Part shown: one piece after another, positions 7,201 through 48,304 of the stretch
Numbering within the stretch: the stretch's first letter is position 1
How the letters are laid out: every line of letters starts with the position of its first letter
Source of the DNA: Apostichopus japonicus
Lineage: Eukaryota > Echinodermata > Holothuroidea > Aspidochirotida > Stichopodidae
Assembly: GCF_037975245.1 (NCBI RefSeq)
Contig: NC_092580.1
Span: forward strand, 9,647,001 to 9,711,000
DNA length: 64,000 nucleotides
Reading direction: 5' to 3'
Program-made: the position numbers and the translations under genes
The notes under the pieces: generated by a model
Database searches by the model: none
What the model saw: the letters and a program-made list of their open reading frames with translations, nothing else
What the model was told of the DNA's origin: nothing

Positions 7201-10200
7201 GTGATACCAACTACTGTATATACACCCCAAAGAATGGTTAGTAGTGATAGCAACTATATACACCCCAAAGAATGGTTAGTAGTGATAACAACTACTGTAT
7301 ATACACCCCAAAGAATGGTTAGTAGTGATACCAACTATATACACCCCAAAGAATGGTTATTAGTGATACCAACTACTGTATATACACCCCAAAGAATGGT
7401 TAGTAGTGATACCAACTACTGTATATACACCCCAAAGAATGGTTAGTAGTGATAGCAACTATATACACCCCAAAGAATGGTTAGTAGTGATACCAACTAT
7501 ATACACCCTAAAGAATGGTTAGTAGTGATACCAACTACTGTATATACACCCCAAAGAATGGTTAGTAGTGATAGCAACTACTGTATATACACCCCAAAGA
7601 ATGGTTAGTAGTGATAGCAACTACTGTATATACACCCCAAAGAATGGTTAGTAGTGATAGCAACTATATACACCCCAAAGAATGGTTAGTAGTGATAGCA
7701 ACTACTGTATATACACCCCAAAGAATGGTTAGTAGTGATAGCAACTACTGTATATACACCCCAAAGAATGGTTAGTAGTGATAGCAACTATATACACCCC
7801 AAAGAATGGTTAGTAGTGATAGCAACTATATACACCCCAAAGAATGGTTATTAGTGATAGCAACTACTGTATATACACCCCAAAGAATGGTTAGTAGTGA
7901 TAGCAACTATATACACCCCAAAGAATGGTTAGTAGTGATAGCAACTACTGTATATACACCCCAAAGAATGGTTAGTAGTGATAGCAACTATATACACCCC
8001 AAAGAATGGTTAGTAGTGATAGCAACTATATACACCCTAAAGAATGGTTAGTAGTGATAGCAACTACTGTATATACACCCAAAGAATGGTTAGTAGTGAA
8101 AGCAACTATATACACCCCAAAGAATGGTTATAAGTGATACCAACTACTGTATATACACACCCCAAAGAATGGTTAGTAGTGATAGCAACTACATACACCC
8201 TAAAGAATGGTTAGTAGTGATAGCAACTATATACACCCCAAAGAATGGTTATTAGTGATACCAACTACTGTATATACACACCCCAAAGAATGGTTAGTAG
8301 TGATAGCAACTATATACACCCCAAAGAATGGTTAGTAGTGATAGCAACTACTGTATATACACCCCAAAGAATGGTTAGTAGTGATAGCAACTACTGTATA
8401 TACACCCCAAAGAATGGTTAGTAGTGATAGCAACTATATACACCCTAAAGAATGGTTAGTAGTGATAGCAACTACTGTATATACACCCCAAAGAATGGTT
8501 AGTAGTGATAGCAACTATATACACCCTAAAGAATGGTTAGTAGTGATAGCAACTATATACACCCCAAAGAATGGTTAGTAGTGATAGCAACTACTGTATA
8601 TACACCCCAAAGAATGGTTAGTAGTGATAGCAACTATATACACCCTAAAGAATGGTTAGTAGTGATAGCAACTATATACACCCCAAAGAATGGTTAGTAG
8701 TGATAGCAACTACTGTATATACACCCCAAAGAATGGTTATTAGTAATAGCAACTATATACACCCCAAAGAATGGTTAGTAGTGATAGCAACTACTGTATA
8801 TACACCCCAAAGAATGGTTAGTAGTGATAGCAACTATATACACCCCAAAGAATGGTTAGTAGTGATAGCAACTATATACACCCCAAAGAATGGTTAGTAG
8901 TGATAGCAACTATATACACCCCAAAGAATGGTTATTAGTGATAGCAACTACTGTATATACACCCCAAAGAATGGTTATTAGTGATAGCAACTACTGTATA
9001 TACACCCCAAAGAATGGTTAGTAGTGATAGCAACTATATACACCCTAAAGAATGGTTAGTAGTGATAGCAACTATATACACCCCAAAGAATGGTTAGTAG
9101 TGATAGCAACTATATACACCCCAAAGAATGGTTAGTAGTGATAGCAACTACTGTATATACACCCCAAAGAATGGTTATTAGTGATAGCAACTACTGCATA
9201 TACACCCCAAAGAATGGTTAGTGGTGATAGCAACTATATACACCCTAAAGAATGGTTAGTAGTGATAGCAACTACTGTATATACACCCCAAAGAATGGTT
9301 AGTAGTGATAGCAACTACTGTATATACACCCCAAAGAATGGTTAGTAGTGATAGCAACTATATACACCCTAAAGAATGGTTAGTAGTGATAGCAACTATA
9401 TACACCCTAAAGAATGGTTAGTAGTGATAGCAACTATATACACCCCAAAGAATGGTTAGTAGTGATAGCAACTACTGTATATACACCCCAAAGAATGGTT
9501 AGTAGTGATAGCAACTACTGTATAGACACCCCAAAGAATGGTTAGTAGTGATAGCAACTATATACACCCCAAAGAATGGTTAGTAGTGATAGCAACTATA
9601 TACACCCCAAAGAATGGTTAGTAGTGATAGCAACTATATACACCCTAAAGAATGGTTAGTAGTGATAGCAACTATATACACCCCAAAGAATGGTTATTAG
9701 TGATAGCAACTACTGTATATACACCCCAAAGAATGGTTAGTAGTGATAGCAACTATATACACCCTAAAGAATGGTTAGTAGTGAAAGCAACTATATACAC
9801 CCCAAAGAATGGTTATTAGTGATAGCAACTACTGTATATACACCCCAAAGAATGGTTAGTAGTGATAGCAACTACTGTATATACACACCCCAAAGAATGG
9901 TTAGTAGTGATAGCAACTATATACACCCCAAAGAATGGTTATTAGTGATAGCAACTACTGTATATACACCCCAAAGAATGGTTAGTAGTGATAGCAACTA
10001 TATACACCCCAAAGAATGGTTATTAGTGATAGCAACTACTGTATATACACCCCAAAGAATGGTTAGTAGTGATAGCAACTATATACACCCTAAAGAATGG
10101 TTAGTAGTGATAGCAACTATATACACCCCAAAGAATGGTTAGTAGTGATAGCAACTATATACACCCTAAAGAATGGTTAGTAGTGATAGCAACTATATAC

Positions 10201-12319
10201 ACCCCAAAGAATGGTTAGTAGTGATAGCAACTATATACACCCCAAAGAATGGTTAGTAGTGATAGCAACTATATACACCCCAAAGAATGGTTAGTAGTGA
10301 TAGCAACTATATACACCCCAAAGAATGGTTAGTAGTGATAGCAACTAACTCATGGTTGAATAGCTTAGGTTTTAGATCATAGTACTTGTATTCTTTGAGT
10401 TGTTTGCTCCTTCAAATTACATTGAATGGTGATAAACAAGTCTGATGCAGATGTTTCTTGTAAACCCCCCCCCCCCCCCAAAAAAGTTGATACTATATAA
10501 CTGATAAATATAGCTTGGTAAATGGTAAAACCAGGCTTAATCTACAACAGGAACTTAGAAGCATTGCCTGTATACTTGTTGTGAAGCTGACCTATTTAAA
10601 ATGATCAATTAGTAGAATATCTTATCCAAATAATTGTCAAGGACAAACTTTACTCGATTGTGCTGTGTTTCAATTATCTTACATAGTTTTCAGGATGTTG
10701 TGGCACCAGTCAATGTTAAGTGCCTCCGATACAGAATAAATAGTTCATCAAGGGATCTGTTGTTTACAATGAAAATAGGTCATGAAGGACCACTTTGATG
10801 AAGGTTTATAAGTTTCAAGTTGTTGTGACCCACATATTGATATCCAGTAAAATCCCTCTACAAACCTCATTTTATCTGTATCTTGTATCTTGAATTACCT
10901 GTTTGTTCAACCATAGCTAGTATTTCATTTTGACATTGAGTGATTCAAACCTGAGCTGAGAGTATACGGTCTATACAAAATGATTGTTTGCTTTCTGGTA
11001 ACCTGTACTGTGTTACACTGCCATGCTAGATATATAACAGCCTTTAATTACCCAAACAACAAACTGTTGTGGCTCAACCTTACTATGTAACTTGTGTTAC
11101 TCGAGTTACTAAATGTAACTCGTGGAGCATGTAATCGAATATCTGAATGTGTATGTTGTTTCACTTTTTTACTTTGTTACAGATGAATGGTCCACCCGTC
11201 AAGACCCCAGCGCAGCAGGTCCCTACCAGACCCACATCATTGCATACATCATCTTCTCTACCATCTCTGGCCAGCCAGTCTAACCACCAGGGCGTGTCTC
11301 CTAGTGGAAGAGGCCCACCGCCAAAGCCACCCCCCAGAGCTTACTCCCCTATCAGTAATGATTCCAATATCAAGAGATATTCCTTCTCCCGTATGGCCCC
11401 TCTGTCTGCATCTGCTGCTGCACCATCAAATGTCCATCCATCACCAACCAATCCAACTGGTGGCCATTATCGACATGCTCCCCCAATGGGTGGTATCTCT
11501 GGATCCTCAAACAGTGACAGTGCTTTCAAGAGGTTTTCGTTCACAGGGATCAATGTCACGCCATCTATGATATCAGATCAGGCAGACTCTAGCAATATTC
11601 AAACACCAGGTCAAACTGCAAGTCAAGCTCAGAATCATTTACCCAACGGTAATCAAATCAATGTTGCAGCAGTCACCAGTAGCAGTCTTCAGAGCCTGAA
11701 TACCACAAATGAGAATGTGGTTATGCGAAGACCAAAGCCTTCCAATGCACCAGGCCAATATAGATCATCTTACCAGGGCTCATCCTCCCAGGGCTCATCC
11801 TCCCAGGGGTCATCCTCCCAGGTACCAGCTACATCTGAGTCGGCATTCAAGAGATTTTCATTCACTGGGGTAAACGTCTCTACTGCACTGACATCCGAGT
11901 TTCCATCTGGAGCGCAGGATGCCTCTGGGTCATTCCATGAGCAGCATAACCCCATCTACCAATCAACTGATGTACCAGCAGTCCATCAGAGGCAAGCACC
12001 GATAGAGCAACCAATAAGGATCCCAGCCAGGGAATCTAACCAGAGAGTTCCTGCCCAAACATCTGAGGATTTTATCCACAAGTATACTATTCTACAACCA
12101 GATGACATTGAAGAAAGATCTGGAATGAATCCTCCTATTGCATCACCCCAGGAGAACCCTAAAGTGAATTCCCTTGAACCTGAGCACCTTTTAGAGTTTA
12201 ACCCTCAATCTGACAGGCAGGGCCCTCTAGATGTCATGCAAACAGCAAATATTGCTGGATTTGGGTGGCGGTCTGCAGATCCAAAAAATCCAAACTCCTA
12301 TATGGAAACTGAGATTTAA
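1..12319 (+). CDS. MATH-domain protein with Pro/Ser-rich tail, 5'-partial (gene-level entry; four exons)
   Basis: Coding exons are 1-1262, 3028-3173, 4583-4712 and 11183-12319. Phases at the three junctions are 0, 2 and 0, and the 890 residues join without a stop. The reading frame is open to the left edge, so the start is missing. The protein has three MATH (meprin and TRAF homology) domains: about window residues 30-157, 183-297 and 310-470, the last split by the first visible intron. A short helical segment (LKRCLKQNELLMEELASIR) follows, then a disordered tail of about 380 residues. The tail has an SH3-type proline motif (PPPKPPPRAY) and three copies of a KR[YF]SF motif. MATH domains usually bind partner proteins in signalling adaptors and ubiquitin ligases. 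I do not recognise the orthologue, and an N-terminal RING or B-box outside the window is possible. The gene converges on RPN1. Confidence 0.85.
1303..1676 (+). repeat. Tandem repeat, ~125 bp x 3, intron of MATH gene
   Basis: Three near-identical units start at about 1303, 1427 and 1553. Each begins CAAGGYTGTTGCTGTCATAA and includes ACTTTACAG, which resembles a 3' splice site. The array lies 40 bp past the donor at 1263. Small open frames inside it are a by-product of the repeat. Confidence 0.85.
1960..2300 (+). repeat. Dispersed AGGTCA-bearing repeat, plus orientation, two degenerate units
   Basis: Two units carry the family hallmarks: 'gacctgaaaagcttgtcaac' near 1982 and 'atctgaaaactttgtaaaag' near 2267, each followed by an 'ctcaagaagt' segment. 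A perfect DR4 of AGGTCA half-sites sits at 2238-2253. Other copies are listed at 20160, 28370, 35100, 39785, 42650 and 60040. Confidence 0.65.
2301..3027 (+). other. Rest of first visible intron; nothing recognised
   Basis: AT-rich intron sequence. The acceptor is TTTTTCCAG at 3019-3027. I see no gene, RNA or element boundary. Confidence 0.6.
3028..3173 (+). CDS. MATH gene, exon completing MATH 3
   Basis: Acceptor TTTTTCCAG|GCC and donor ACTAG|GTAAAA, entering at phase 0 and leaving at phase 2. It encodes SLLVRLEMLNIQDIPG, the usual last strand of a MATH domain, so it completes the domain begun in the previous exon. The open frame upstream of 3028 is intron. Confidence 0.85.
3174..4582 (+). 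other. Intron of MATH gene; nothing recognised
   Basis: 1.4 kb of AT-rich sequence between matching phase-2 junctions (AG|GTAAAA and TTTCATAG|G). No repeat, RNA or element ends seen. Confidence 0.6.
4583..4712 (+). CDS. MATH gene, exon with short coiled coil
   Basis: Acceptor TTTCATAG|G completes the split codon; donor is CAGAAG|GTAATC, phase 0. It encodes 43 residues, with a leucine-spaced helical stretch (LKRCLKQNELLMEELASIR) followed by a Gly/Ser/Pro linker. TRAF-type proteins often pair MATH domains with coiled coils for oligomerisation. Here the coil comes after the MATH domains. Confidence 0.8.
4713..5348 (+). other. 5' part of the 6.5-kb intron; nothing recognised
   Basis: Non-repetitive AT-rich sequence leading into the 5-kb minisatellite. 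Short open frames here lack protein character. Confidence 0.5.
5349..10347 (+). repeat. 5-kb intronic minisatellite, mixed 38-bp and 43-bp units, ~120 copies
   Basis: The unit is TATATACACCCCAAAGAATG followed by GTTAGTAGTGATAGCAAC. A longer form has an extra CTGTA before the TATATA. Units vary at a few two-state sites: CCCC/CCCT before AAAG, GTTAGT/GTTATT, GATAG/GATAC and with or without CTGTA. One short plus one long unit is 81 bp, so repeat-encoded open frames of 27-residue period appear; they are not genes. A segment near 6130-6626 recurs at about 7049-7545, offset 919 bp. The array lies between the coiled-coil exon and the tail exon. Confidence 0.97.
10348..11182 (+). other. 3' part of the same intron
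   Basis: Contains a C homopolymer of about 14 bases near 10466-10480. It ends in a pyrimidine tract and TTGTTACAG acceptor at 11174-11182. Nothing else recognised. Confidence 0.6.
11183..12319 (+). CDS. MATH gene, last exon: Pro/Ser-rich tail
   Basis: Encodes 378 residues and the TAA at 12317-12319. It has an SH3-type polyproline run (GPPPKPPPRAY), three KR[YF]SF motifs at 11372-11386, 11528-11542 and 11849-11863, and a QGSSS run encoded by three 15-bp repeats (about 11774-11820). Two motifs sit in a longer FKRFSFTG[IV]NV box. [KR]-R-x-S fits the basophilic (PKA-type) kinase consensus. The strand-shifted frame at 11187 is a shadow. Confidence 0.88.
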   Translation: MNGPPVKTPAQQVPTRPTSLHTSSSLPSLASQSNHQGVSPSGRGPPPKPPPRAYSPISNDSNIKRYSFSRMAPLSASAAAPSNVHPSPTNPTGGHYRHAPPMGGISGSSNSDSAFKRFSFTGINVTPSMISDQADSSNIQTPGQTASQAQNHLPNGNQINVAAVTSSSLQSLNTTNENVVMRRPKPSNAPGQYRSSYQGSSSQGSSSQGSSSQVPATSESAFKRFSFTGVNVSTALTSEFPSGAQDASGSFHEQHNPIYQSTDVPAVHQRQAPIEQPIRIPARESNQRVPAQTSEDFIHKYTILQPDDIEERSGMNPPIASPQENPKVNSLEPEHLLEFNPQSDRQGPLDVMQTANIAGFGWRSADPKNPNSYMETEI

Positions 12320-16769: not shown

Positions 16770-16952
16770 TTATAGGCTAGAAAAGATTTGGTCAATCTTG
16801 CCAAGATATTCACTACGCCTTGCAGAGTTAGTCTTTTCATAATCAACATACTGCTGCTTGGATAACTTCCCATTAACTACTTTCTCGGCATTGGTGATGG
16901 CGGCTTGAATCAGATCCTTCACTTGAGCGGCAATCTTCTGAGCTTCATTTAC
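16770..16952 (-). CDS. RPN1: RPN1 exon 11: C-terminus and stop
   Basis: 60 codons plus TAA, acceptor GTCACCAG|GTA. Encodes [20 protein letters not shown] and [10 protein letters not shown], the family C-terminus. Confidence 0.95.
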   Translation of the reverse strand, partial: VNEAQKIAAQVKDLIQAAITNAEKVVNGKLSKQQYVDYEKTNSARRSEYLGKIDQIFSSL

Positions 16953-19900
16953 CTGGTGACATGAACAAATAAGAAACACAGTTTGAAAAATGTTGCAATG
17001 GTTACAGTTCCCTTAAAATGTCCAAAAATGTCTTCAACAAGGAAGGCATGTGACCATTTGACCACTAATCTTTCATATCTAAAACAATGTTTTGCTAAAG
17101 AAAGTGTCATTTCAAATATTCCATTCATTTCTTTAGAACACTCATGGAAATATTACTCCATATGACAAACCTGCTGTCAATGGAGAATATTGTATTAGCT
17201 TGTCAACCATTATTTGTGAATTCTTGTTATATGAATAGTAATTGAGCAAAGGATCTCACTCTACATTTCAATTCACAACAATTCTCTTTTTCTTATAAAC
17301 CTTAGAAACACATTCTACACCATTCTAAAAAATGTAATAGTTTAAGACAGTTGTGGCAATTCGAAGAGATACTAAATTATCTCTCACAAACAAAACTTGC
17401 TATGTGTGCTGTGACATTCTTCTTTATGTTGCTCAATTCTGTGAAATACAAGGACAGAATTTATGCTTTGGTTGGCTCAAAACAACAAGTAAACTTTGTG
17501 CAATATTAGGACAGCTTTTGAACTGACTTTGAGAAGATTCTAAAACTCCATAGCAACACAATTCATTAGCATGATGACTCAGATAATGATTCAGATAATA
17601 TCAAACACATTGTCTAAATTGCTCCTTGTATCCAATTGAAGGATAACAATAGGCACAACATTAAGTTTGATATGTTGTTTAACATTAATAACCACTGGTA
17701 TCAGTCCAGGGTTTCTTTCTACAAACACTTCTGATTTTTGAGAAATGACCCTTTAAACAGCTGAGGTTTGTCAGTTACAATGACTGGACTATAGTCTAAT
17801 ACACAAAACATTAGGTCAATTCCCTCAGATACAACACATGACTCAACGTGAAAACATAAAGACTTTTACTGCCTCAAGCGATATGGTTACAAATTTGACA
17901 AGGATGAATAGTGTTGAATGTCATCCAAAGGTGTTCTGTTGTTTGTTAAATGAACATATTTTGGTTGAGTTCTTAGAATTCATAAAACTATGGACTAACT
18001 ATAACATTTAATCCTGCACTCAGGAGCGCAGATTCAGCATATACTAAAGTTGAATATCTTGAAAACAGATATGTAGAATATTAAATATGAAGCACTTAAT
18101 TTGTGTTGGACTATAACTTATCAAGACTACAATTTTGCCTAAATTCATCTCTTGGGTAATGTTTGGGGAGGCAATTGTTATAAATGGCCAGAATCATTTG
18201 ATACACTCTGCCCAGTGTTCATGTGGAGGAGAGTGTGCTATACTGTAATTGAACATTGCAATAATATTTACAAGATGCAACAAATACTTTCTGTTGGAGT
18301 GAGTGGTTTTAGCTCTCTGGTTTAATCGTAAAGATAAATCACCATGTAGAAATTGCATGGTTTTACCAAATATCTTTCACAAACTTTTACAACCAACGTA
18401 ACATAACATGGATATTAACGGATGACTAAAGGCAGAATTTTAGGCTAGATATGTCACAGTGAAAACAATAAATCAATAAATAAATAAATAGATAAATAAA
18501 TAAATGAATGAATAAATAAATAAATAATAAAAGAAGGCTAATATGCTATTATGGTTTTGAAGATCATCAGATTTATATATTAATAATCTCAGGAAAGCTG
18601 CTTGAAGGCTTATTTGATGACAAACTTGGCTCACTTGGTGCAGATCTAAAAAAAATTCTCAATCTGTTCTAATAAACTCAATCAAAAATGTTCTTTTATT
18701 TCATATAAAGCAACAGACCATCTATGGATGATATTTCAACACCATTTGTCCTCAGCCAATGTGTACTAACTTTGTAAACATGTTACTTGAAATCATAAGA
18801 ATCTTATTTTCCTATTGAGAAATGACATGGGTCTATGTGTTGTACTTGTTCATCCAGCCACTTAAACTGATGTGCCTCATATGTTTAAAGGAACATTTCT
18901 CAAAATTAAATGTAGTATAAAAGCAAAATTTGGACTGATAATAATTGGCTATAAATGGACTTCAATATGTCATGATTAATATTAATGATGCAATACAGCA
19001 AGCACCATTAATGAGAGGAACAAACCTTATCAGCTACATCAGTACTTTCTGCTTTCATGGATGACATCAGATCAGTAATGCGTGAAGTAAAGTTACGATG
19101 TTCTGCGTCAAGAGCTTTCAGAGCGCTACGGAATGCTAGGTAAACAAAACAACAACAAACATTTGAACTACTTACTTGAAATCCTCTTGCAAGATATCTA
19201 AACCTACAAAAGTAGTCCATTTTTTCAAATAAATCTGTATGACATTAAAAATTCCTGTTCACAGACTATTTGCAAGTTTGTGAAAGAGAAAATGCTATGG
19301 TGTGCAAAGGAGAGGTAAAGCAAGATGAAAACTGGGAAGAAAGTAAGGCTAGGCTCTGTACCACAAACACTTAGTAATAACATGTTGTTTCAGCTAGAGA
19401 TTACTTGTTAGCACAGATCCCAACATCGATGTATACCACAAATAATCAGCCAGACATTTAATCACATAATTGGAACTTTCTCAAATGACCAAAGCAATGT
19501 AGCTTTAGAAATTTCCTTAGAAAATACAAAATACTATAACAACAAGTTTTGAAGCATCTTAATATAACCACTGAATAACTCTATCAAGCTCAAAAATAAA
19601 GAGCCTGGACAGCCATTGTTTTGGACATTATTTAGAAGCTACTGTTCCATTACAAGAAAAGCAGAATGATTGAAAGACCTACCTGAAACTAGTGACACCA
19701 CAGTAGGCTAATTGTCAGTATAGGAAGAGGAATCTTAGAGATATGGGTCACTTAGTTAATGTCTATACAGCATTGCATATTGGCCATAATTGCCACATCA
19801 TGTATGAAACTGCTGTTAAGTTGCTTAAGAAAGATCAAGCTCACATCACTGTACTCCTTCAGCAACCTTGTCAGACTCACTTGAGACAGTTCACAAGATA

Positions 19901-22900
19901 ACATATATATATTACTGAATATATAATGACTGTAATCTCACCTCCATTATCCTTGTTGGATTTGAATTTGTTGATGGCCGTATCGTAGTTAGGATACAGT
20001 CGCTGACGCTTTCCCTGAAGGGAGAGAATTTCTTCCACCTTTCCAGCCAAACGAAGGCGAGATTCGTTTGCAGCGTCCTGACAATTAAGACAAAAAAGAA
20101 TGAAAACTGAGAGCAATGTAATTATTACAATAGCAATTAAACAAACGAGTTATGACTACGACAGGTTTCTCACACGGTTGCTGTAATATGACTGTGAATT
20201 TCATCCAAGCTTTACTTGTACAATAATCATGTTTATAATGTTTTCAGACATTTGACTTGTTATAAACCTCCAATGACTTTTGACCTCCCACCACTTTCAA
20301 TAGGTAAGTTTGGTACACATCAAGGTGTATCTAAATACTAAGAATGAAGTTCAGCCAACTTATATTGTTTGAGATATCTTGTTTACTCCTTGTTACAAGG
20401 TTTTCAGATTTTGACCTCAAATGACCTCCAACAACTACCACTTTCAATGGGGTTCTTGTAGTTCTTTAAGTCAACAAAAGATGTACTGTAAGTGTTATAG
20501 TGTTTACAAGCTTAATTGTCACATACACCATCCCATGAGATTCTTTTTGCCTTCAGCAATGAATCAAAAATATTTCAAACTCAACAACTAGAGGCTCTTG
20601 TGCAATAATGTTATGTTTGAGAAGGTTTGCCTATGTGACTTGTAAATAGTTTAAAGAGGCAGCTATACTGACCAATGAACAAACTTGCACTTAATAGCAA
20701 TAAAAGTATAGCTAGTTCTAGGAAAAATTTACTTTTTCTAAAATGTTCTACAAGTGACACTTTTCTTCATACCTTTGTGATGGCAAAGTCAAGACGAACA
20801 GTGACAATGATGACCAAGAAGACCAGGAAAAATGCAACGACGACCATCAGAGGTTCCTGGAGTAGGAGCACTCTGGAGAATGTATAGTGAAGCTGTAATG
20901 AAGAAAACACATATTAAACTATATGTGAGTAATGCAATGACGACCATCAGAGGTTCCTGGAGTAGGAGCAGTCTGGAGAATGTAAAGTGAAGCTGTAATT
21001 AGGATAAGACATATTAAACTATATGTAAGTAATGTAATGACGACCATCAGAGGTTCCTGGAGTAGGAGCACTCTGGAGAATGTATAGTGAAGCTGTAATG
21101 AGGCAAAGACATATTAAACTATATGTGAGTAATGTAATGACGACCATCAGAGGTTCCAGGAGTAGGAGCACTCTGGAGAATGTATAGTGAAGCTGTAATG
21201 AGGAAAAGACATATTAAACTATATGTGAGTAATGTAATGATGACCATCAGAGGTTCCTGGAGTAGGAGCACTCTGGAGAATGTATAGTGAAGCTGTAATG
21301 AAGAAAACACATATTAAACTATATGTGAGTAATGCAATGACGACCATCAGAGGTTCCTGGAGTAGGAGCAGTCTGGAGAATGTAAAGTGAAGCTGTAATT
21401 AGGATAAGACATATTAAACTATATGTAAGTAATGTAATGACGACCATCAGAGGTTCCTGGAGTAGGAGCACTCTGGAGAATGTATAGTGAAGCTGTAATG
21501 AAGAAAGACATATTAAACTATATGTGAGTAATGTAATGACGACCATCAGAGGTTCCTGGAGTAGGAGCACTCTGGAGAATGTATAGTGAAGCTGTAATGA
21601 AGAAAGACATATTAAACTATATGTAAGTAATGCAATGACGACCATCAGAGGTTCCTGGAGTAGGAGTACTCTGGAGAATGTATAGTGAAGCTGTAATGAG
21701 GAAAAGACATATTAAACTATATGTAAGTAATGCAATGACGACCATCAGAGGTTCCAGGAGTAGGAGTACTCTGGAGAATGTATAGTGAAGCTGTAATGAA
21801 GAAAGACAAAACTATATGTAAGTAATGTAATGACGACTATCAGAGGTTCCTGGAGTAGGAGCACTCTGGAGAATGTATAGTGAAGCTGTAATGAAGGAAA
21901 GACATATTAAACTATATGTAAGTTATGTGCCTCATTTAATGTACCTCAATCACAACATGTACTATAGGAATGTGTCAAGTTGTGTAATTGGATACAGTAA
22001 GTATGCACATATCCATAGCAACATGTACAGTATAAATGAGTAAACAACTGACTCTTCAGGTAACATCTAAATAAAGTAATCATATTTTAAGCCAAATATA
22101 CAATGAAATATAATTACATAAACACCATAACTATAGAGGTACTCTATAAAATAAAATAAAATTGTTACTAATACTTTAGATATACTCGCTATCATTCCAA
22201 CATTACCAATGACTACTTGTTCACATTATTAAAGATACCATTCAGCATGATTACAATGCAGATGTGATTTGGTGTGAGTCTAATTATACTAATGTGTCAG
22301 TCAAAGGACTAATGTAAGATAAATGTTCCAAACATTTGAAATTTTGCCGAGCAGGGTTAGTATGTAACAAATCTATCTCTTGATAAAGTAGCTTTTCATA
22401 TTATTTAAAATCTTCATATTGGTTCCAGCACCTTGATGCATTAAAATCCACTGCTAGAGCAAGTCCCCTTGCCAAAACTAAATGTTATCACCAAACATTG
22501 GCAATAAAATAGGAGAGAGACTGGAACTAGTATATGACAGGCTCTGTTAATCCCAATATAGTAGAAACTTAATGACAACCAGCCCAGTACCCAACATCTG
22601 CAGCAGTTATGTTGATTGGTAGACAATGCACATTGCCTTGCCTAAAACTACTGTACTCTGACAATCTGCAGTAATGTTACTAGAGAAAAAAAGTTTGCTT
22701 CCCAGGGACGCAAGTCCCCTAAAATGTTTGCATCCAGTAAAAAAAAAAATTGCATCCCGATTAAAAACACCAATTTGCATTTGTGTTGTGACCTACTTTT
22801 ACTAGTGCTGTTGTAAAGATGCAATCTTATCACTGTCTATACTGTGTGAATGAGCTATATATAAGGCATATGTAGAGCAGATGGCCCGGTGCCCCAGCTT

Positions 22901-25900
22901 CGCTGTTTTACAGGGGCGGCCCACCACCTCTTTTGGTCCTCCCTGCCCTTTCAACTGATTTTCACCACCCAGCCACTCTTTCAACCACCCTTGTACTTTC
23001 TAACTCACCAACTACGTAGTAGCTACATGCTTTGACCTTGCAGCGACAACCAACCAACTCTAAATGCGGAGAGAACAAACATTCTCTGAGATGAAAAATC
23101 CTTTTCAGTATTAGAGATGTTAGCATCCCACATAATTCATACATTGTCCAAACTCGTAACATTTTCTGATCCAAAGAAAGATTCAAATATTACGTGATAG
23201 TCTCAGCAACAATTCAAGCGCATCTTCGTACCATGAGCCCTTGTCGAAAACGTACCTACTGTATGTGACATATGATATGCCTATACCACACACTTTGCTA
23301 TGTCTACACAGGGGAAGGTGACATTACAAGTAGTTGCATACTATGTGTTCACTGAGCAAAACAGATGCAATGTCTGCAGACAATGGGTAAGGGACTATTA
23401 GCCGATCAAATCACAGAAATTTGGAAAAGCGTCATGGACTATTTTCAGCGTGAACATCTCTGGAACGGAAATGTTGTTAACCTTTTACCTTAAGGTCGAT
23501 TGTTATGATTTATTTGTTTTCAAACAATTTCCATTATCTGTAGGAGTGGAAAAGAGTGTGGTTCCTTTCAGAACAAGCTATGGTTTTTTGAAAAGAAAGA
23601 AAGAAAGAAAGATGTTCTTTCAAAAATGTGGTTTGTTATATTTTGCAAAGGCCTTGTTGTGAGTGCATGTATTTGGGGTTCGTTTCTACTAATAAAAAAG
23701 TTGCGTCCTCCAAACGTATGCAAATTTGAAGATTTTCCGTCCCTGGCTAAAACAATGCGTCCCAGATGCAGAATAACAATGCTGATTTTGTGCTACGTAC
23801 AACTGTTTGAAAAAGACTGAACATTAAGCTTACCTCGAAGTCATCAATATGTTGCTCAACGAGGTTGGATTTATGGGCAATAAGCACGATACGGCCAGAA
23901 ATATCCAGGTAAGTCTTGTGTAACTCATCCGGATCGCGACGAACATCAAAGGGAGCATCAAGGCGAGCATTCCTAGGTAAGATGTGTGGTGTTATCAAAT
24001 CAAATTTGAATTCTATTTACTTACATTGTTAGCTACAGTAACTGTGAGTTTGTCTTTCCTCACGCACTCTCTCATTAAGTATGATCAGCCTAATGGAATT
24101 ATAAACAGAGACATGAACATAGAAAAAGAAAGAGTTTAACCTGTGAAGCTGCAATAAATAATAAAAAGCACTTAGGTGACAAGTAACATGGCATCCTAAC
24201 CTAATAACCTCAAGTCTGGGGAATGTAAGGTTTGTGGTCAGAATTCTTTAAGTGGTAAGAAGTCTTTATTTCAAACTGAATAAATCTCCAACAACCAAGT
24301 AGATATTGTTGTGCATTTAATATCAGTTTCTTTTCTCATGAATTGGTTGTGAAATAATCCAGCATAAGAGCATAAAGTACATTACTTCAGGTTTCTTGCA
24401 CTCACTTGCATCCTTCAGGGAGGATAATCTTGACAGTCAAATCATCCACAACCATGTCATCAAAAACATGATCTAAGAATCGCATCTTCAGGATGTAATT
24501 ATCACCTGTAAGAAAAGGAAAGGAAAGAAAAAGACGTTAGTGAAATTGGCCACTCATGTAGAACTGAAAGGTAGTGTAAAACACAAAATGGCCAACCTGC
24601 TCACAAAAAACTGACATTAAACGGCAAAGGGTTTTCTGTACACATACAGTAATTACAATATTCTTAAGAGATACAGTATAATGTTAAGCAAAATTCATAG
24701 CATGAACTAAGTTATGCACATTTTACTTGAATCTATTCCCTAAAAATGTTGACAGCTTTAATGAAAGAGACTTAAACATTTTAACGCTCTCTGTGGATGC
24801 TGCAAATTGTCGGCTGGCTGGATCCCTCTACTTAAACTGAGAAGGTTATAAAGCTGTAATAACTTATTTTGTTGAATTCCTTATCTTTGTTAATTCATAC
24901 AGGAATGCACTGTTGACAAACTGAGCCAGCAAAACTACATCAGCTATGAACAATAAACCAAACAGTGTGACAATGTCAGGAATTGGCTGTTAGCAATCTT
25001 GTTGTATTAGCCATTGATGCTACACCAGCACTGTGCTGTGTTAAAAATTGGCAAGAACCTGCTCGATTAAGATTCATACGTTTGCCTGTCAGTAATACAC
25101 TTGTTCTGCAGTGCAACATTCGTGTGTTGATTGCCGTGTAGTTTAATTTCAATGTGCAAAATATGTGCCTGCTCTCGCACAAGGCTAGAGCCTAGCCTTG
25201 AATATTGAACATCCTTCTACAGAAAATTCTTGCATACTAATCTATCACACTGCTACAAGGTGTCACATCTATTCTTTGTTTGCACGTTTTGCTTTTATTA
25301 TTGCTAGTAGTTGTAGTAGCTTCATAGATTCATTTGAAAGTTTTTGATTTACTTTGAAGGATTTTAAGAAACGTTTTATATTGAAAGTTGTTCACAGCTT
25401 TTAAGTTTGTCACTCATGAAAATGTAAAGAGTCAAATCTTATATCCGTGGCACTGGCCTTTGAATATTTAGTCAGTAACTGAATGGCAATGAAATCATTA
25501 CATTGTCAACAATCTTTTGCAAACCAATTATAAAACTACTATCCCACTTGGTTAGGGAGGAATTTTTCACCCTCTCATATTTACATTGTTATTGTAGTCC
25601 ACACCAAATAACCTCTTTGGTCAAGAAATAATACTTTTGAAAAGATCTGTGGCAACATATTCTGGACTTATTTTATGCAAATCATAACACCCAACATATT
25701 TCTTTCCAATATATGTTTCATTCTAAAAGTTTAACTTCTGCACTTGTGACTCTTACCTGAGCTGAAAAGATACTCATAGCTTGGAAGGTTATAACCCATG
25801 GTATAGTGAGTCTTCCAGCCCCCGAAGAGAGGAAACCTGGGTCGGAGTTCCAGTTCAACGTGATCATCCCTCTCCAAAAGGTTACTAGTGGAGATGTTGC

Positions 25901-28900
25901 CAATCTCATCTCGATAATAGACATCCTGTGCAGCAGCTGGGAGGATGGTCTGAATGGAAAGATAATTACACAAAGAGACTTTATGAGGCAAATGTGATTG
26001 ATTAGTGAAGGGGATGTTGTACATTGGATGCGTTGAGACAACCAAGGGTAGAGAGAAGGGAGCACATGTTAAATTACAGTATACTATCAGGCAAGAGATG
26101 CTGAACAAGTTACTTCTAAATCAGTCACCTTTGACTAACATTGCACACGGCACAATTGTTACATTGCTTAGGAAATGACTGACCAGTATATGAAACACAT
26201 GGCAGAAGTTCCAAGTAACAATCTCACATTTCACACTTTTCATATTTACAGTTAGCGTTTCACAAATCAGTAAGGTATTTATAGAATACTTGAAGCATGA
26301 ATCTTGAAACTTTTACTCACTGTAAAAGATTTGACAGAAGAGAAGCCATCCTGCTGTCTTTGGTAATCATATCTCGAGAAGGATCCTTTCAGCTTGGCGC
26401 CGGAGTGGGAAACATCAAAGGTCTCTTCCACTGCAATGTTTCCCCAGTGTGAAACTTCAATAACCCTCTCCATGCGGGTTACTGTCAGGAATGGTTTGTT
26501 GTTTTCAAAATGAATCTTAGCTTGTTCCTAGAGTGGAACATAAAACAATTCAATAACTAACATGAACGGATGGCATCATAACTCAGAAAAGCCAAACAGA
26601 GATGTTTCTGTGTTTTTTACAAATTTAACGAGAAGTTCCAGAAGCTTTGTGATTCATTGTCAAAGTTTTCACGAAACTTTCACTCAACTACCTGACTGAC
26701 GTAGATTAACTGCTCAGTCAATTTGTGGAAAGGATTACAGTAAGTCAGACCCAGGAGATCTGAGAGTTCCAGCTCTAATACCGACATATTGCAATACTAA
26801 CTGGCCAACCAATTAAGTTAACTAAAACAAAGCAGGAACAACCTTCACTTGTGGAATACAATCACATAAAAGCTGGATGAAGCTAGGGACATTTTAACCA
26901 AATTGAGCTAACAAACCAGTTATTCAATCCCTTTATCAACTGTCATTAATGAATGTAGGATACTTGCTTTTGTGAATATTTTACTTACTGCCAATATCAC
27001 TTTCCCCCAAAAAAATATTACCACTGTGTCATAAACCTGTATACTGTAGCTTTTGTCCTAAGTAATCACTACTTGACACATCGGTCTTTCACTGCACCTC
27101 ATAGACAAATTAATAAAATGAAGTAGGTTTTTTACCTTGCTGAATGCTTCTTTGTCTTCATATGGACCATAAGTGATAGTATCATCTTCAACTGACACAG
27201 GGTTTACTTTAGTATGAGACTCGATCTCACTGGAGGCCAGCTTGACTGTGGTGGTTTGACTGGTAGACTTGTAAGGAGAGTAAACCAAGACACTTCCAAA
27301 AAATTCAACCAGTTGCTTCTCACTCTGGGTGATCTGAGCTGGGTATGGGCGAAGGGCCTTGATGTAAACTTCTTCAAACTTGATGTCAGCACTGCTTCCT
27401 GCCTTCAATGGCTCCTGGAATTTGATCTCAAAGAAGGATCCACTGATAAAGAAAATGATAAATACTGTTCTAAAACATCAGGGAAATTGTCGCTCAAATG
27501 ACTATTAATGGTGTCATGAAACATTTATCAGTAGGTCACATACTCTGAAATGAAAACCATTTCATGTTGTCTATATACAGCTTGCTAACCATTATAAATA
27601 GACATGAACCTAACTTGAACTCAATTTTTACTTTGATCTGAAATGACCTTTGGCCTTCTTATTCACATTTCTCAAAACATATTACATGTATGACTAATAG
27701 TTATCTAACATAGAGCAAGAAAATAAAAGACAAGTTCCAACTGTTGTAATTGTCAGAATTACCTTGAGCCCATTTCCTTGAGAAATGGCAACAAAGAAAG
27801 AAGCTACTGTATCTGTCTTGCACATTTGAGCAAGTTCCAATATATTAACCGTATCATGGTTTACAACTGTAGCTACTACAGAGTAGATATCCTAATTCCT
27901 AATATGTCATGATTCTAACAGTTTGTGGTTGATTTAATCACTTCTGCAATGAACTAAACATGATCTGAAATTATTTAAAAACAGGTTGAGGTTTTGCCAC
28001 TTCAAGTTTGAGATGGGAAAAACTTGGTAAGAAAAATCTCTCCTAGTCTCAAGGAGAGAGGCAGGTTTGAATCATTCTTCTATTTGGACCCTTGATTGTT
28101 CTCAATTGTGGTATAAGTAGATGGAAGCACTAGAAAGGAAATCCATTTGAAACATACTTAACATTTCTGCAAATTAGAACCTTAAATGACATTTGACCGA
28201 CTCATATTGCCGAACATTTGTGACAACTCACCAACCAACAAGTTAACAATGCTCATTACTCACCTTTGTCCAGTAATTTTCACTGGAGCTAAGCTAACTT
28301 TTTCAGAATCTTCTTCTTCATCTTCTGTTTGCTACAGTAAAGAAAAATAAATTACTTTATACCAGCCTCCTTTGACATCAAATGACCTTGATTAGAATAC
28401 ACAAGGGTTCTGATACTTACTAAGGTGGATCTGATGTATGTACCAAATATAAATCCATCAATGTTTGTTGTTTGCAGAAAGTATTTACAAGGTTTTCAAA
28501 CTTTAACTTCTAGTGACAACAAATGATCGCTCCTGTTCATAAGAAAACAAATTATACCTCATGTACTTACTGTGGTGATGCACACGCCAATGACATTCAT
28601 CCAAGCTTACAGTAGTTTGGACTTTGGAGTCATTTTGTTCATAAGTGTTTTAGACTTTTTCTGTTCACCTCAAAAGTCCAGACAGTCATTAAACTTAAAA
28701 CATAATATTTTGTTTATCTATATTCAGTATATGTGGTTTTTGACATAGGATTCATCACTGTCCAGCTGTCCAGAGTTAAATAGCTTACTGTAGCCTGTAG
28801 GCTAAGGCCAGGGCAATGTAAAAGCCAGTTGCACTTGTACTGTAGTTATTTGCCTAGTAGGGCTGTGTCATTCCGGTTAATTCACCAACCGGTTAACCGT

Positions 28901-31900
28901 TTCTATTAACCGAACGGTTAACGTTTAAACGTAACCCGTGTTGTTGCCTCAAAATAAGAGCCGAAAATCAGAGTTATATAGCTCAGATTATAATTCCGAA
29001 AGAGCGCCACCACTTTTGATGCGGAAGTATCGTTTTTTCGTAACGCGTATATATGTCAAGAATTTGGTTGTATTTGCTTAGTTTTGACGAACGTTGCATT
29101 GAAAAACACGAATCGCGCGTTTTCATGAAGTTTTATACAGATTTTTGTTTCTCTTTCAGTTCATCAACTGTTACAGAGATATTTGAAGCAAATATTTCTT
29201 CGTTAATTGCGTAGCCCCTACTGTAATAGCGCAGGCATTGTATGGCAGTTATAAGCCTAATATTACTAGGCCTACTTAATATTGGCATTGTGTATTGAAG
29301 TTCGCGATCATATGGAGTGTTAGACTACAAGGCTTTCACCAGCTAGGCCAAGGTTAGGAAAGTCGGTTGTTAGGAAGCGATTACTACAGAAGTGTACGGT
29401 AGTAGGGCTAGGCCTACGCAATTACAAGTACAACAATGGGTCACAGATATATTGAATTTGTGCATTGTGGCGGGGTAGGCAGAGGGTAGGGGGAAGTGTG
29501 GAAAACATTGTAAAATTTCCCGCGAACACCCTGTCGATTTCCCGCCGGCAAACACAATTAGCACGCGTAGCATAATGGCGTGGGGTAGTCCCCTGGTGGG
29601 GTCAAATTTTGAAATGACAAGTTAGAGTAGCCATATTTTGTTATAAAATGAAAAGAGATCTATCTGTCTTACAATCATTAAAAAGTTTAACCTAAAAAAA
29701 CATGCGATTTTATGAAACAACGTTCGGCAAAGCCCCATTCCTAGACTGCCTAACAATAGCTTGCACAATACTACAAGGCCGTGGCTATTCTTACGACTAG
29801 TTGTAACAATTATTTATTAACTATTCTTACGACATCGGCGAATTCATGCGCAGTAAGTAAATAAAGCAACTTCGCATGTAGTAGGGTTAATCCTAACCCT
29901 AACCCTAATCGGAAAATAATGGTAACTCCTAGTCGTAAAAATAGTATACTACTCTTGGTTGTAAAAAAAAATTAGCAACTGCGCATGCGCAATCGGAAAT
30001 TTTTGTTACAACTAGTCGTAAGAATAGCCACTTTGATACTACAACAACGGTAGGCTACATTTTCCAAGGTACCTTGCCAAACAACTGTGAGCTCATCCCC
30101 TGTCTAACACCTGTTGTTAACAATTTTTTGGCATGTTGCCAAGGAACGTTTCATGGTCTAGAATTAATAAGGTCAGTCAGTAAAGGTTCGGTTAAGTTAT
30201 GAGAATTATTATCTTAGACGTTTAAGAAAAGTAGGTAAAATATGATCCCCGTAACAGCTAGGTAAGTAAAACAGGCAACTGACTCCTCCGCATGAACAAG
30301 ACAATCTATTCCACATGATACATGAAAGTAAACCTTGTAATCACATGTTTAAGGCCACTTGGCATGATTAACTAAATGCTTAATATTGTTTCCATGTTCT
30401 TGTAGAAAACGTAAACTTCGCAATATACAATTAGTTGTGTTTTTGTAGTTACGTGAGATCCGTAACCGACGAGGTGGTTAGGCTATTTGCTATACACTTA
30501 ACTATGGTAGGATATTATTTTCTCCGTAATTTTGGAAATTCTAGAAAATACTTTTTCGCCGCTTAACACCAGATTTGTTCTTACGTTTTATTCATAATTT
30601 GGTGTACTAGAGCCTTGTTTACATGACATTAGTTGCATTTAGCACGATATGCCAGTTTCGCGTGAATTTTTCAAAAGTTTTTTGCTCGATCTTTCGTAAA
30701 ATTTGAAAGGTGTACCAACTTACCTTTCGTACACAATTGGTTATTTCTCTACTGATTTTCTGAGTTTTTTTTACAGTCAAGTGTATACGTTGTGCATTGA
30801 GTATAAACTTATCGCGAATGCAAGAAAACGATGCGGGGATTTACAGCAGACAAATGTTTCTTTGTGGGATTACCGAGTCTGTTGAATGGAATCCCGCACC
30901 TTAGAGGGAACACTGAACTGAAATTACATCATAGTAAAGAAAACGTTTACTGCTTAAATACAATATAAATTTGAAAGGATTAGATGCAGACTCGCCACGT
31001 TGTCGAACGGGGTAACAATAGGCGCTTCACGGGTCGCATACCGCTTGGTAATCCCTTCAATCGTACCGCCAATCTTAAAAATCTTTTGTATGGATGCGTG
31101 ATAAAGTTTGCAATTGTTACGTGATTTTCGGCAAGCAAATGTTGCGGTCTATTTCGGGAATAAAGTGATGTGAAGACGCGCCGTTGCGACTGCGTAATTG
31201 GCATTACAAAAACGGTTAAACTTATACGATGTACGGCGGACGTTTATCCGGCCGTTCGGTCGGTTAACCGGTTAACCGTTTAACCGTTACAGCCCTATTG
31301 CCTAGCAAGTTGCATAGACATTGAACTAGGCCTACACTGGTTTTGAACGATGTGTTACATGTTATGCCATATGACAAACAGAAGTTATGATTGATAGTTC
31401 ATGTACGCACGTTTAACTAAACATATGTGTGAAATGAAAGTTCATAACTAAACACAGGGTTCTTTTGGATCCTATAAAACACCTACAACTATACAAGTTT
31501 TACAACTAGGCCTAGGCCTAAGTTACTGTACAAGTGTACAAATGCCAATTCCATTTCGTGAAACCAGTACGTACATGAAGGACGTTTATCATGATATTTT
31601 TGGAACGGCACCATAGATACTTCAGGTTTTCAAGTTAAACAAAATTAAACATGGAAAATAAAAATTAAACAGACTTACGCTAGCACCAGCAAAAGCTAAA
31701 GTGTCCTCCATTACTGGGTCAAGTCCAAAAACGTAGGAATCGGCAGCAGATGAACCGGTATTTTCCACCGTTACGGATGTAGAAATTTGAACAAGCTGAG
31801 AGGAAATATCCACTTTTCTTTCAACCTTTTTGTTGACTAATCCTGGCTTGATAGTAACTTTATTTTCACTCAGACAGCTAGAATAAAGCGTGGTAAGTAC

Positions 31901-31927
31901 CACAAATGCAAAAAGAAGCTTTTTCAT
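16770..31927 (-). CDS. RPN1: Ribophorin I, oligosaccharyltransferase subunit 1 (complete, 11 exons)
   Basis: Exons in transcript order: 31927-31679, 28331-28264, 27442-27136, 26527-26321, 25949-25757, 24505-24406, 23972-23834, 20892-20773, 20077-19942, 19135-19026 and 16952-16770. They sum to 1812 nt, or 603 aa plus TAA, close to the roughly 607 aa of vertebrate RPN1. All junctions are GT-AG and phases agree. A signal peptide ([20 protein letters not shown]) is followed by a lumenal region to about residue 436, one membrane helix (about 437-456) and a cytosolic helical tail. Family signatures include [37 protein letters not shown] and [13 protein letters not shown]. The protein is part of the ER complex that transfers glycan to nascent proteins. 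The ATG has A at -3. The orthology is secure. Confidence 0.97.
16953..19025 (-). repeat. RPN1 intron 10, with (AAAT)n microsatellite at 18468-18532
   Basis: 2.1 kb of AT-rich intron. The only clear structure is an imperfect AAAT microsatellite of about 65 bp. No gene or element ends seen. Confidence 0.7.
19026..19135 (-). CDS. RPN1: RPN1 exon 10: cytosolic tail
   Basis: Acceptor TTACCTAG|CAT, donor ATAAG|GTTTGT (a weaker but valid GT donor), phase 0 out. Encodes [20 protein letters not shown], matching the vertebrate tail helix in position and pattern. Confidence 0.9.
19136..19941 (-). other. RPN1 intron 9; nothing recognised
   Basis: 0.8 kb of AT-rich sequence with valid splice ends. Confidence 0.6.
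19942..20077 (-). CDS. RPN1: RPN1 exon 9: cytosolic tail
   Basis: Acceptor AATTGTCAG|GAC, donor GGAG|GTGAGA, phase 1 out. Encodes [20 protein letters not shown] and [13 protein letters not shown], the charged helical tail after the membrane. Confidence 0.92.
20160..20560 (-). repeat. Dispersed AGGTCA-bearing repeat, minus orientation, RPN1 intron 8
   Basis: On the minus strand it reads the same order as other copies: 'aaggttttcagattttgacc' on the plus strand near 20398 and 'tttcatccaagctttacttg' near 20199. A perfect DR4 (TGACCT, 4 bp, TGACCT on the plus strand) is at 20412-20427. At least two degenerate units. Confidence 0.65.
20773..20892 (-). CDS. RPN1: RPN1 exon 8: transmembrane helix
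   Basis: 40 codons, acceptor CATTACAG|CTT, donor AAG|GTATGA, phase 0. Encodes [20 protein letters not shown], then a hydrophobic helix and the basic stop VRLDFAITK. Its acceptor and first half are copied about ten times immediately upstream in transcript sense (20893-21921). Only this copy has the full helix and a donor. Confidence 0.93.
20893..21921 (-). repeat. 100-bp tandem array built from the RPN1 exon 8 acceptor and 5' half
   Basis: Ten extra units follow the real exon at 95-100 bp spacing; the GAGGTTCC landmark falls near 20850, 20950, 21050 and so on to about 21843. Each unit contains the acceptor CATTACAG and the exon start encoding [17 protein letters not shown], then about 45 bp of intron-like sequence in place of the membrane helix and donor. 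The 400-bp stretch from about 20881 is repeated almost exactly from 21281, showing multi-unit duplication. No copy has the complete exon. Confidence 0.95.
21922..23833 (-). other. Upstream part of RPN1 intron 7
   Basis: Mostly unassigned. Two related 'cagggacg/cgtccctgg' segments (about 22700-22770 and 23690-23775) lie in opposite orientation and may be ends of a decayed element. A short GAAA microsatellite is near 23594. No gene seen. Confidence 0.4.
23834..23972 (-). CDS. RPN1: RPN1 exon 7: end of lumenal domain
   Basis: Acceptor TTACCTAG|GAA, donor TTCGAG|GTAAGC, phase 0 out. Encodes [17 protein letters not shown] and [14 protein letters not shown], the segment just before the membrane-proximal strand. 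Confidence 0.95.
23973..24405 (-). other. RPN1 intron 6; nothing recognised
   Basis: 433 bp of AT-rich intron with consensus ends. Confidence 0.6.
24406..24505 (-). CDS. RPN1: RPN1 exon 6: lumenal domain
   Basis: 100 bp, acceptor TCTTACAG|GTG, donor GCAA|GTGAGT, phase 1 in and 2 out. Encodes [12 protein letters not shown] followed by [12 protein letters not shown], matching the family. Placed by phase and homology. Confidence 0.92.
24506..25756 (-). other. RPN1 intron 5
   Basis: 1.25 kb. The one local structure is a perfect hairpin at 25180-25200 (CAAGGCTAG, 3-base loop, CTAGCCTTG). Otherwise nothing recognised. Confidence 0.55.
25757..25949 (-). CDS. RPN1: RPN1 exon 5: lumenal domain
   Basis: Acceptor CCATTCAG|ACC, donor TCAG|GTAAGA, leaving phase 1. 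Encodes [20 protein letters not shown], with an N-glycosylation sequon (NIS) at a position also seen in vertebrates, then [13 protein letters not shown]. Confidence 0.95.
25950..26320 (-). other. RPN1 intron 4; nothing recognised
   Basis: 371 bp. Two overlapping frames open on the minus strand are extensions of exon 5 and shadows. Confidence 0.6.
26321..26527 (-). CDS. RPN1: RPN1 exon 4: lumenal domain
   Basis: 69 codons, phase 0 at both ends, acceptor CACTCTAG|GAA, donor ACA|GTGAGT. Contains the highly conserved [15 protein letters not shown] and FSRYDYQRQ motifs. The open frame continues past the donor into intron. Confidence 0.95.
26528..27135 (-). other. RPN1 intron 3; nothing recognised
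   Basis: 608 bp of unremarkable intron. Confidence 0.6.
27136..27442 (-). CDS. RPN1: RPN1 exon 3: lumenal domain
   Basis: Acceptor TTTATCAG|TGG completes the codon left by exon 2; donor AAG|GTAAAA, phase 0. It carries the conserved [11 protein letters not shown] and [20 protein letters not shown] stretches. Confidence 0.95.
27443..28263 (-). other. RPN1 intron 2
   Basis: 821 bp. A short AGGTCA-like patch near 27630-27660 may be a worn copy of the dispersed repeat family; otherwise nothing recognised. Confidence 0.45.
28264..28331 (-). CDS. RPN1: RPN1 exon 2 (short acidic exon)
   Basis: 68 bp, acceptor CTGTAG|CAA, donor AAAG|GTGAGT, leaving phase 2. It encodes [19 protein letters not shown], matching the acidic loop of the family. 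It is too short for a simple ORF search and is placed by phase and homology. Confidence 0.9.
28370..28650 (-). repeat. Dispersed AGGTCA-bearing repeat, minus orientation, RPN1 intron 1
   Basis: Recognised by 'ttgacatcaaatgaccttga' near 28372, 'caaggttttcaaactttaac' near 28490 and 'attcatccaagcttacagta' near 28596. These have the same order as the RPN1 intron 8 copy. Confidence 0.6.
29777..30035. mobile_element. 259-bp inverted-repeat element (MITE) nested in the hAT-like element
   Basis: The arms from 29781 and to 30031 are perfect 28-bp inverted repeats beginning GTGGCTATTCTTACGACTAG. The direct repeat ATACTACAA (29768-29776 and 30036-30044) is a candidate 9-bp target duplication. The outermost 4 bp of the two ends do not match, so the true duplication could be shorter (ATACTA if the ends are CAA...TTG). 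Superfamily not assigned. The centre has inverted telomere-type repeats. Confidence 0.82.
29882..29910. repeat. Head-to-head telomere-like repeats
   Basis: TAGGGTTA is followed by CCTAACCCTAACCCTAA: one G-strand unit facing about two and a half C-strand units of the TTAGGG animal telomere repeat. It sits in the middle of the nested MITE. Confidence 0.8.
31679..31927 (-). CDS. RPN1: RPN1 exon 1: signal peptide and start of lumenal domain
   Basis: 83 codons ending GCTAGC|GTAAGT, phase 0. Residues 1-20 are a hydrophobic signal peptide. The [16 protein letters not shown] stretch is the conserved ribophorin N-terminal strand. Confidence 0.95.
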
Positions 31928-43110: not shown

Positions 43111-43317
43111 TATTTTCATGCCTACATTTATGCATCATCGTGAATGTACGGCTCTTTTTTAGCTCATTTCTCGTCTACCATAAACGCAGTGCAATCTTTT
43201 TCAAATAAAGCGTCTTTATAAAGCAAGAATAGTTGACTGTAGGCTTCATTGGCCCTATAACATCAAAAGGTATTATTGCACCCACGTTTTTGATATAGTA
43301 CATATATGGCTTGCGAG

Positions 43318-43500
43318 TCACTTCGCCCAACAACCATTTCGCCCAACTGCCATTTCGCCCAACCAGCCTGGTCATTTCGCCCAACCGCGTTGGTCATTTC
43401 GCCCAACCAGCATGGTCAGTTCGCCCAACCGTGTTGGTCATTTCGCCCAACCGTGTTGGTCATTTCGCCCAACCGTGTTGGTCATTTCGCCCAACCTTAT
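43318..43500 (+). repeat. 22-bp tandem repeat (TTCGCCCAACCnGnnTGGTCAT), forward arm
   Basis: About seven units of 22 bp, preceded by two shorter TTCGCCCAAC units at 43321-43360. An inverted counterpart lies at 46206-46404. The open frames over it encode FAQPxWSFRPT repeats and are not a protein. Confidence 0.9.
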
Positions 43501-43904
43501 TTTTACTAATATTCAGTCAGAATAATATTACTTTTTCTATTCCACCAGTTCAATTTGATTTATTTTGGGTTAGGTTACTTCGTAATAGGTAAATAAAAAA
43601 GTGAGGTCCGCTCGATGTCGATCGGAGTCTGAGTAGTTATTTCGGGTATAATGGGAGGATTACACTACTTTAGGCGTTTACGCATACAATGGAAGTTATA
43701 TTATTATACAAACACAGGGGAATCGGTCTTCATAAAAACCTATCAAACCTAACCCCTAAAACACTGATCCATCCTGCTGACTAACAATTCCCGAACGTTT
43801 CCTTATTAAATTGAAAAAAAAATATATAAAACCCGTCCGTAATATTGAATTACTATATTTAATCAATGTAACCACTTTATCAATGTAACCACATATGTAT
43901 TCAC

Positions 43905-45830: not shown

Positions 45831-45839
45831 TTCACATAT

Positions 45840-46205
45840 GTAATCAATTTAACCACGACTTCAAGTTTCCTTAATACTCGGTTCGTATCCCGTAACGTTA
45901 GCAATTCCCGAACATTTACTATATCAAACCTATCAAACCTAACCCCTAAAACACTGATCCATCCTCAAGATTCCTTAATATTCGGTTCGTATCCTGTAAC
46001 GTTAAAAATTCCCGAACGTTTCTTTACTAAAGTTATACAAAGTAAAGGACTTCAAGTTTCCTTAATATTCCTTAATATATGAACGTTTACTATCAAACCT
46101 AACCCCTAACACACTGATCAATCCTCAAGTTTCCTTAATATTCGGTTCGTATCCTGTAACGTTAACAATTCCCGAACGTTTCCTTTTGAAATATCATATT
46201 TAATC
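45840..46205 (+). repeat. ~165-bp degenerate tandem repeat
   Basis: 'cggttcgtatcctgtaacgt' and 'tcaaacctaacccctaaaac' recur at about 45880/45936, 45979/46095 and 46142. A related piece lies at 43739-43800, on the far side of element copy 1, so the element appears to have split a tandem block. Confidence 0.7.
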
Positions 46206-46404
46206 AAGGTTGGGCGAAATGACCAGGCTGGTTGGGCGAAATGACCAGGCTGGTTGGGCGAAATGACCAGGCTGGTTGGGCGAAATGACCAGGCTGGTTG
46301 GGCGAAATGACCAGGCTGGTTGGGCGAAATGACCAGGCTGGTTGGGCGAAATGGTAAGGTTGGGCGAAATGGCAGTTGGGCGAAATGGTTGTTGGGCGAA
46401 GTGT
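46206..46404 (-). repeat. 22-bp tandem repeat, inverted arm
   Basis: Six or more perfect units of GACCAGGCTGGTTGGGCGAAAT, then shorter units. The order and the terminal ACTTCGCCCAAC are the mirror image of 43318-43500. The units are more uniform than in the forward arm. Confidence 0.92.
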
Positions 46405-47574: not shown

Positions 47575-47582
47575 ATCAAGGA

Positions 47583-48300: not shown

Positions 48301-48304
48301 ATGA

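Follow-up and report, generated by a model that had tools for sequence, protein, structure and literature searches.

Minisatellites whose units straddle an exon–intron boundary have been described in amphioxus under the name of mirages (PMC3087553, PMC3902484). The closest case is the globin gene BflGb6, in which an intron's 3′ end is repeated in tandem together with the 5′ part of the exon that follows, next to the authentic boundary, as units of 150–160 bp of which one haplotype has 6 and another 3. Many of these units keep their splice signals and they are partly homogenised, with the cluster boundaries reported as excluded from homogenisation, and RT-PCR suggested that the gene is regularly spliced (PMC3087553). 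Repeats that span exon–intron boundaries and thereby duplicate splice sites are likewise described for Adh3 (10–72 bp), for troponin C and for PGBD5 (60 and 108 bp), the last of these added in PMC3902484, where troponin C is cited (PMC3087553, PMC3902484). Mirages are reported not to disturb regular splicing, a statement that draws on the RT-PCR and the Adh3 data (PMC3087553, PMC3902484), and the hosts described in these two papers are cephalochordates.

The array considered here lies in an echinoderm, the sea cucumber Apostichopus japonicus, within a stretch of 64,000 nucleotides that we call the window. The minus strand of the window carries the coding region of RPN1 (ribophorin I, oligosaccharyltransferase subunit 1), which runs from start codon to stop within 16770–31927 and was delimited through PF04597 matches, a reading of the exons and the match of exon 1 to OST subunit 1 in a solved structure (6s7o, chain E). 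All seven of the PF04597 exon matches found genome-wide fall in the window, and six of them lie above the family cut-off. The match of exon 8 lies below it (18.6 bits, E 0.369), so that this exon was placed by order and frame, and its number presumes one short RPN1 exon (about Pfam positions 55–79) that was not located. Exon 7 (23834–23972, minus strand, 139 nt) ends in GAG, with the intron opening as GTAAGC, and since this is a codon boundary, exon 8 is read in phase 0. Intron 7 (20893–23833, minus strand) is 2,941 nt long if it ends at the real acceptor and 1,948 nt long if it ends at the farthest of the decoys described below, and the real exon 8 (20773–20892, minus strand) comprises 120 nt, or 40 protein letters, followed by the donor GTATGA from position 20772 down.

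Directly upstream of exon 8 in the sense of the transcript, and including its start, Tandem Repeats Finder reports an array at 20831–21928 with a period of 100, 11.1 copies and 94% matches, numbers that rule out a chance origin of the repeats. In each of its 11 minus-strand units, 38 nt from the 3′ end of intron 7 run into the 62 nt with which exon 8 opens, and the AG between the two parts is intact. Unit 0 (20831–20930) contains the real acceptor, whose first exonic base is 20892, and the ten decoy units (20931–21923) place theirs at 20992, 21092, 21192, 21292, 21392, 21492, 21591, 21690, 21790 and 21885, which gives acceptor spacings of 100 bp in seven cases, 99 bp in two and 95 bp in one; the small deletions in units 6, 7 and 9 fall in the intron part. 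Private substitutions set units apart, units 1 and 5 are identical, and the decoys vary at 7 of their 62 exonic sites, divided 3/2/2 among the codon positions, which is a small number. At the joint between repeats, GCATT on the exon side and ACATA in the upstream intron have CAT in common. The sense strand of the array contains no GTRAG donor; 11 GTRAG motifs are present on the antisense (plus) strand of 20831–21928. Exon 8 and intron 7 were searched for inverted repeats of at least 20 nt through which the array might pair with other parts of the intron, and none were found. A search of the 671.6-Mb assembly (671,581,487 bases in 35 contigs) found the RPN1 array in no second place, its count of at least one being a lower bound.

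A preliminary description of this DNA had assigned the locus to RPN1 exon 8, with ten decoy acceptors spaced 95–100 bp apart upstream of the exon and without donors in the decoy units, and all of this agrees with the PF04597 matches, the exon reading, the acceptor positions and the lack of GTRAG on the transcript strand. Other parts of it need adjusting. The acceptor sequence that it gave, CATTACAG, is present at the real site and at eight of the ten decoys, and units 1 and 5 read AATTACAG instead; the image of a satellite grown from an exon is better replaced by that of a minisatellite with a unit lying across the intron/exon edge (38 + 62 nt); and the statement that the copies lack the membrane helix is nearly correct, as the units retain just the first helix residues.

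Measured against the amphioxus cases, the RPN1 array belongs to the same known kind (PMC3087553, PMC3902484). Its unit combines part of an exon, a splice site and part of an intron (38 nt, AG and 62 nt, in 11 units), and it is contiguous with the authentic boundary, unit 0 being the start of the real exon. The likeness to BflGb6 extends to the tandem copying of an intron's 3′ end with the 5′ part of the following exon, to the splice signals retained in many units and to their partial homogenisation. The host, in contrast, is an echinoderm and not a cephalochordate, and in the same way the Adh3, troponin C and PGBD5 mirages sit in other genes and in another phylum. What is new relative to the two papers is the host phylum, the RPN1 gene, the recurrence of such arrays in a small survey and evidence for an exchange of sequence between a working exon edge and its array; a limited search of the open-licence literature found no report of exon-edge arrays in echinoderms. 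A curiosity of the lancelet is thus extended to an echinoderm.

Several near-identical acceptors competing for one upstream donor are also a feature of Dscam-type mutually exclusive exons. In such a cluster every copy has both an acceptor and a donor, whereas the RPN1 array offers half exons only, with no GTRAG donor on its sense strand, so that its copies could hardly act as separate exons.

Every base in the array was also compared with the base 400 bp further on. There are no mismatches between 20842–21101 and 21242–21501, which means that a 260-bp block on the minus strand, which spans the real acceptor and takes in 51 nt of exon 8 and the 209 nt preceding it, is identical to a block that holds decoys 4 and 5 and part of decoy 6. 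From −209 to +51 the real acceptor and decoy 4 are therefore identical, and the real unit differs from decoy 4 in 9 columns, compared with 14 from the unit that adjoins it. This identity suggests recent turnover of the array, and we infer that a recent duplication or conversion passed through the real edge of exon 8 itself. Here the locus departs from BflGb6, as the boundaries of that cluster are reported to stay outside homogenisation (PMC3087553).

The same identity bears on how the correct acceptor may be chosen. Sequence between −209 and +51 cannot distinguish the real site from decoy 4, so that any difference in their usage must come from position, from the distance to the donor or from sequence outside this span. 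Only the real acceptor is followed by the rest of the exon and by a donor 120 nt downstream. This makes exon definition, which the preliminary description had put forward beside low-level mis-splicing, the best explanation and closeness to the donor, judged from the DNA, the likeliest discriminator between the real acceptor and the decoys; the reading fits the anatomy of the locus and gains force from the identity of the two sites, so that the earlier interpretation is partly supported. Decoy 4 and the real acceptor would provide a clean in vivo test of exon definition. If units do exchange with a working exon edge, the turnover of a minisatellite can alter coding sequence together with a splice site that is in use.

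If a decoy were used, exon 8 would be extended to between 220 and 1,113 nt, measured to the real donor, and translation of the ten extended versions meets an in-frame stop in all ten, even for the five decoys that lie 300, 600, 699, 798 and 993 nt away, all multiples of three. The frame shift previously predicted for the nearest decoy is correct (100 leaves a remainder of 1 on division by 3) but understates the consequence. Messages that contain such stops would be expected to undergo nonsense-mediated decay.

Our preferred account, to which we give a probability of about three in four as a whole, is that this is an exon-edge minisatellite of the mirage type, that the real site is used through exon definition and that the array is tolerated. 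A tandem duplication would have joined intron 7 and exon 8 at points that share CAT, after which the units would have been multiplied and homogenised by slippage, unequal exchange or gene conversion. The real edge of exon 8 would have joined in a recent exchange with the array, as its 260-bp identity indicates. The spliceosome would then pick the real acceptor for being the only one with the donor 120 nt downstream, compared with 220 to 1,113 nt for the decoys, and such messages as do arise from decoy use would be cleared by nonsense-mediated decay. The array itself is probably without function, and it could be tolerated because copies were added only on the intron side, which left the exon intact. 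A splicing model in which the first transcribed acceptor wins would favour the farthest decoy and would count against this account.

The decoys may, on another reading, be used to a measurable degree and lower RPN1 output by way of stop-containing messages, in which case the number of copies would tune the dosage of the gene. The retention of the AG and the 3′ splice region in the decoys, the equivalence of decoy 4 to the real site over −209 to +51 and the stop that follows from every decoy are all in keeping with this idea. The regular splicing reported for the amphioxus cases (PMC3087553) speaks against it, as does the lack of any sign of coding-type selection on the decoys, whose few variable sites are spread 3/2/2 over the codon positions, and we regard a dosage role as unlikely. 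That the array is instead an incipient cluster of alternative exons under regulated splicing, whether Dscam-like or of the poison-exon kind, is very improbable. A partial exon copied in tandem within an intron is what such a cluster might start from, and a route from mirages to new introns or exons has been proposed (PMC3087553), but the sense strand of the array offers no GTRAG donors, exon 8 and intron 7 lack inverted repeats of at least 20 nt, and the unit spacing is mostly not divisible by three.

An error of assembly, be it a wrong repeat number or a false array, was weighed as well. Tandem arrays are classic sites of collapse and expansion, and the identity of units 1 and 5 is in keeping with such an error. 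On the other hand, private substitutions distinguish units, similar arrays occur elsewhere in the assembly, and the published A. japonicus assembly is described as built from 64× HiFi reads with a mean length of 14.7 kb (PMC10344927). Since reads of this length far exceed an array of 1.1 kb, an artefact is very improbable, and the account in terms of a tolerated mirage-type array retains our preference.

Whether RPN1 stands alone in this genome was addressed by a survey of the DNA around 110 exon matches (177,070 bases), comprising all 70 myosin-head matches and 40 of 134 kinase matches. Most of the latter stand high in their list, they have open frames of at most 156 residues, and several equally fitting rows were passed over; the 110 matches are partly non-independent, as several share a gene. 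Arrays with a period of at least 12 cover 9.7% of the survey and lie within 60 nt of 13 matches according to Tandem Repeats Finder. Arrays at that distance or closer were considered for exon edges, together with the one at L022, and exons that outrun their match could hide more. One candidate, L117, was dropped because its array is wholly intronic on a reading of the sequence, and five others (L038, L068, L073, L078 and L079) were dropped on their simple units or their distance to the match, as judged from the Tandem Repeats Finder listing alone.

Exon-edge arrays were recognised at 7 of the 110 matches. Four of them include 60–90 nt of exon: L060 is of the acceptor type (124-bp unit, about 69 nt of exon, 2 decoys), L062 is of the donor type (spacing 124–163 bp, about 89 nt, 4 decoys), and two kinase loci on contig C11, L091 and L092, are of the donor type with 70-bp units and about 64 nt of exon, with 11 and 10 decoys, respectively. 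The weaker three, all of the donor type, include 7–13 nt of exon, namely L012 (53 bp, 7 nt, 18 decoys), L071 (periods of 28, 62 and 124 bp, about 13 nt, 9 decoys) and L081 (31 bp, about 12 nt, 15 decoys). L012, L062 and L071 belong to one myosin gene region on contig C4. L091 and L092, 3.3 Mb apart, look like paralogues with a common donor-type exon-edge array, and comparing the two could show how such an array turns over once its locus has been duplicated. Donor-type arrays cannot separate the models of splicing discussed above, because the real donor is both the nearest to its exon and the first to be transcribed.

Decoys were located by sequence patterns, of which those for RPN1 and L017 contain AG, and for these two the number of decoys equals the number of copies found by Tandem Repeats Finder. 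All 79 decoys of the seven arrays and RPN1 would bring in a stop if used, one of them, in L081, being without GT. GT or AG is retained by 69 of 70 decoys in seven arrays, a count that leaves out the nine decoys of L071, which had been picked for GT; no claim of selection is drawn from this retention, as the decoys were picked by pattern.

The survey suggests, from the assembled DNA, that exon-edge arrays recur in A. japonicus. It was also used to ask whether arrays are commoner at exon edges than the high background of tandem repeats in introns would give, and no such enrichment was found. Array cover (period of at least 20) amounts to 13.8% beyond 400 nt from a match, a value that rests on 30 loci with 1.5-kb flanks, then to 7.3% at 101–400 nt, 4.2% at 21–100 nt, 3.2% at 1–20 nt and 1.6% inside the match. 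Because cover falls towards exons, arrays do not seek exon edges, and the simplest reading is that exon-edge arrays are tolerated by-products of frequent tandem duplication. One could go further and suppose that sea cucumber genes harbour a pervasive class of fast-turnover exon-edge minisatellites, so that very many genes would carry runs of intact decoys and the functional site could be an exchanging member of the array. We hold this wider view only tentatively and with somewhat more doubt than belief, as it is weakened by the fact that three of the seven arrays hold 7–13 nt of exon and two are look-alike loci. If it is true, such genes would constitute a natural experiment in which the spliceosome has to select one of several sites that are locally identical.

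The assembly also contains evidence on its host. Contig C35 is a mitochondrial genome of 16,099 bp, whose COX1 fits the echinoderm genetic code 9 better (923.2 bits) than code 5 (882.4 bits) when compared with the same best chain. With the protein genes named from their translations, its order is COX1, ND4L, COX2, ATP6, COX3, ND3, ND4, ND5, ND6 (minus strand), CYTB, tRNA-Phe, ND1 and ND2, which is the order of sea urchins and sea cucumbers. On another contig, C29 (31,219 bp; locus L008), COX1 matches lie about 16 kb apart, a spacing that would suit a head-to-tail mitochondrial dimer or an insertion of mitochondrial DNA.

Several further features of the window may be recorded. Tandem repeats include a five-kilobase minisatellite at 5349–10347 (unit of about 38 bp, 125 copies) and a 99-bp array at 55721–56597 with 8.8 copies and a 298-bp period as well. 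An origin from exons was rejected for the latter and for the arrays at 1302–1663, 61928–62207 and 63136–63681, as a six-frame reading, the only check applied, revealed no exon edge in them. An inverted repeat at 43298–46424 has arms of 22-bp units (CATTTCGCCCAACC...) at 43350–43498 and 46206–46354, and it is nested with a larger interrupted palindrome at 43931–51157, whose arms (about 43931–45792 and 49548–51157) consist of pieces that are 74–98% complementary; the two look like a mobile-element structure. Near the start of the window, positions 6–1283 hold an open frame of 425 amino acids with matches to the MATH domain.
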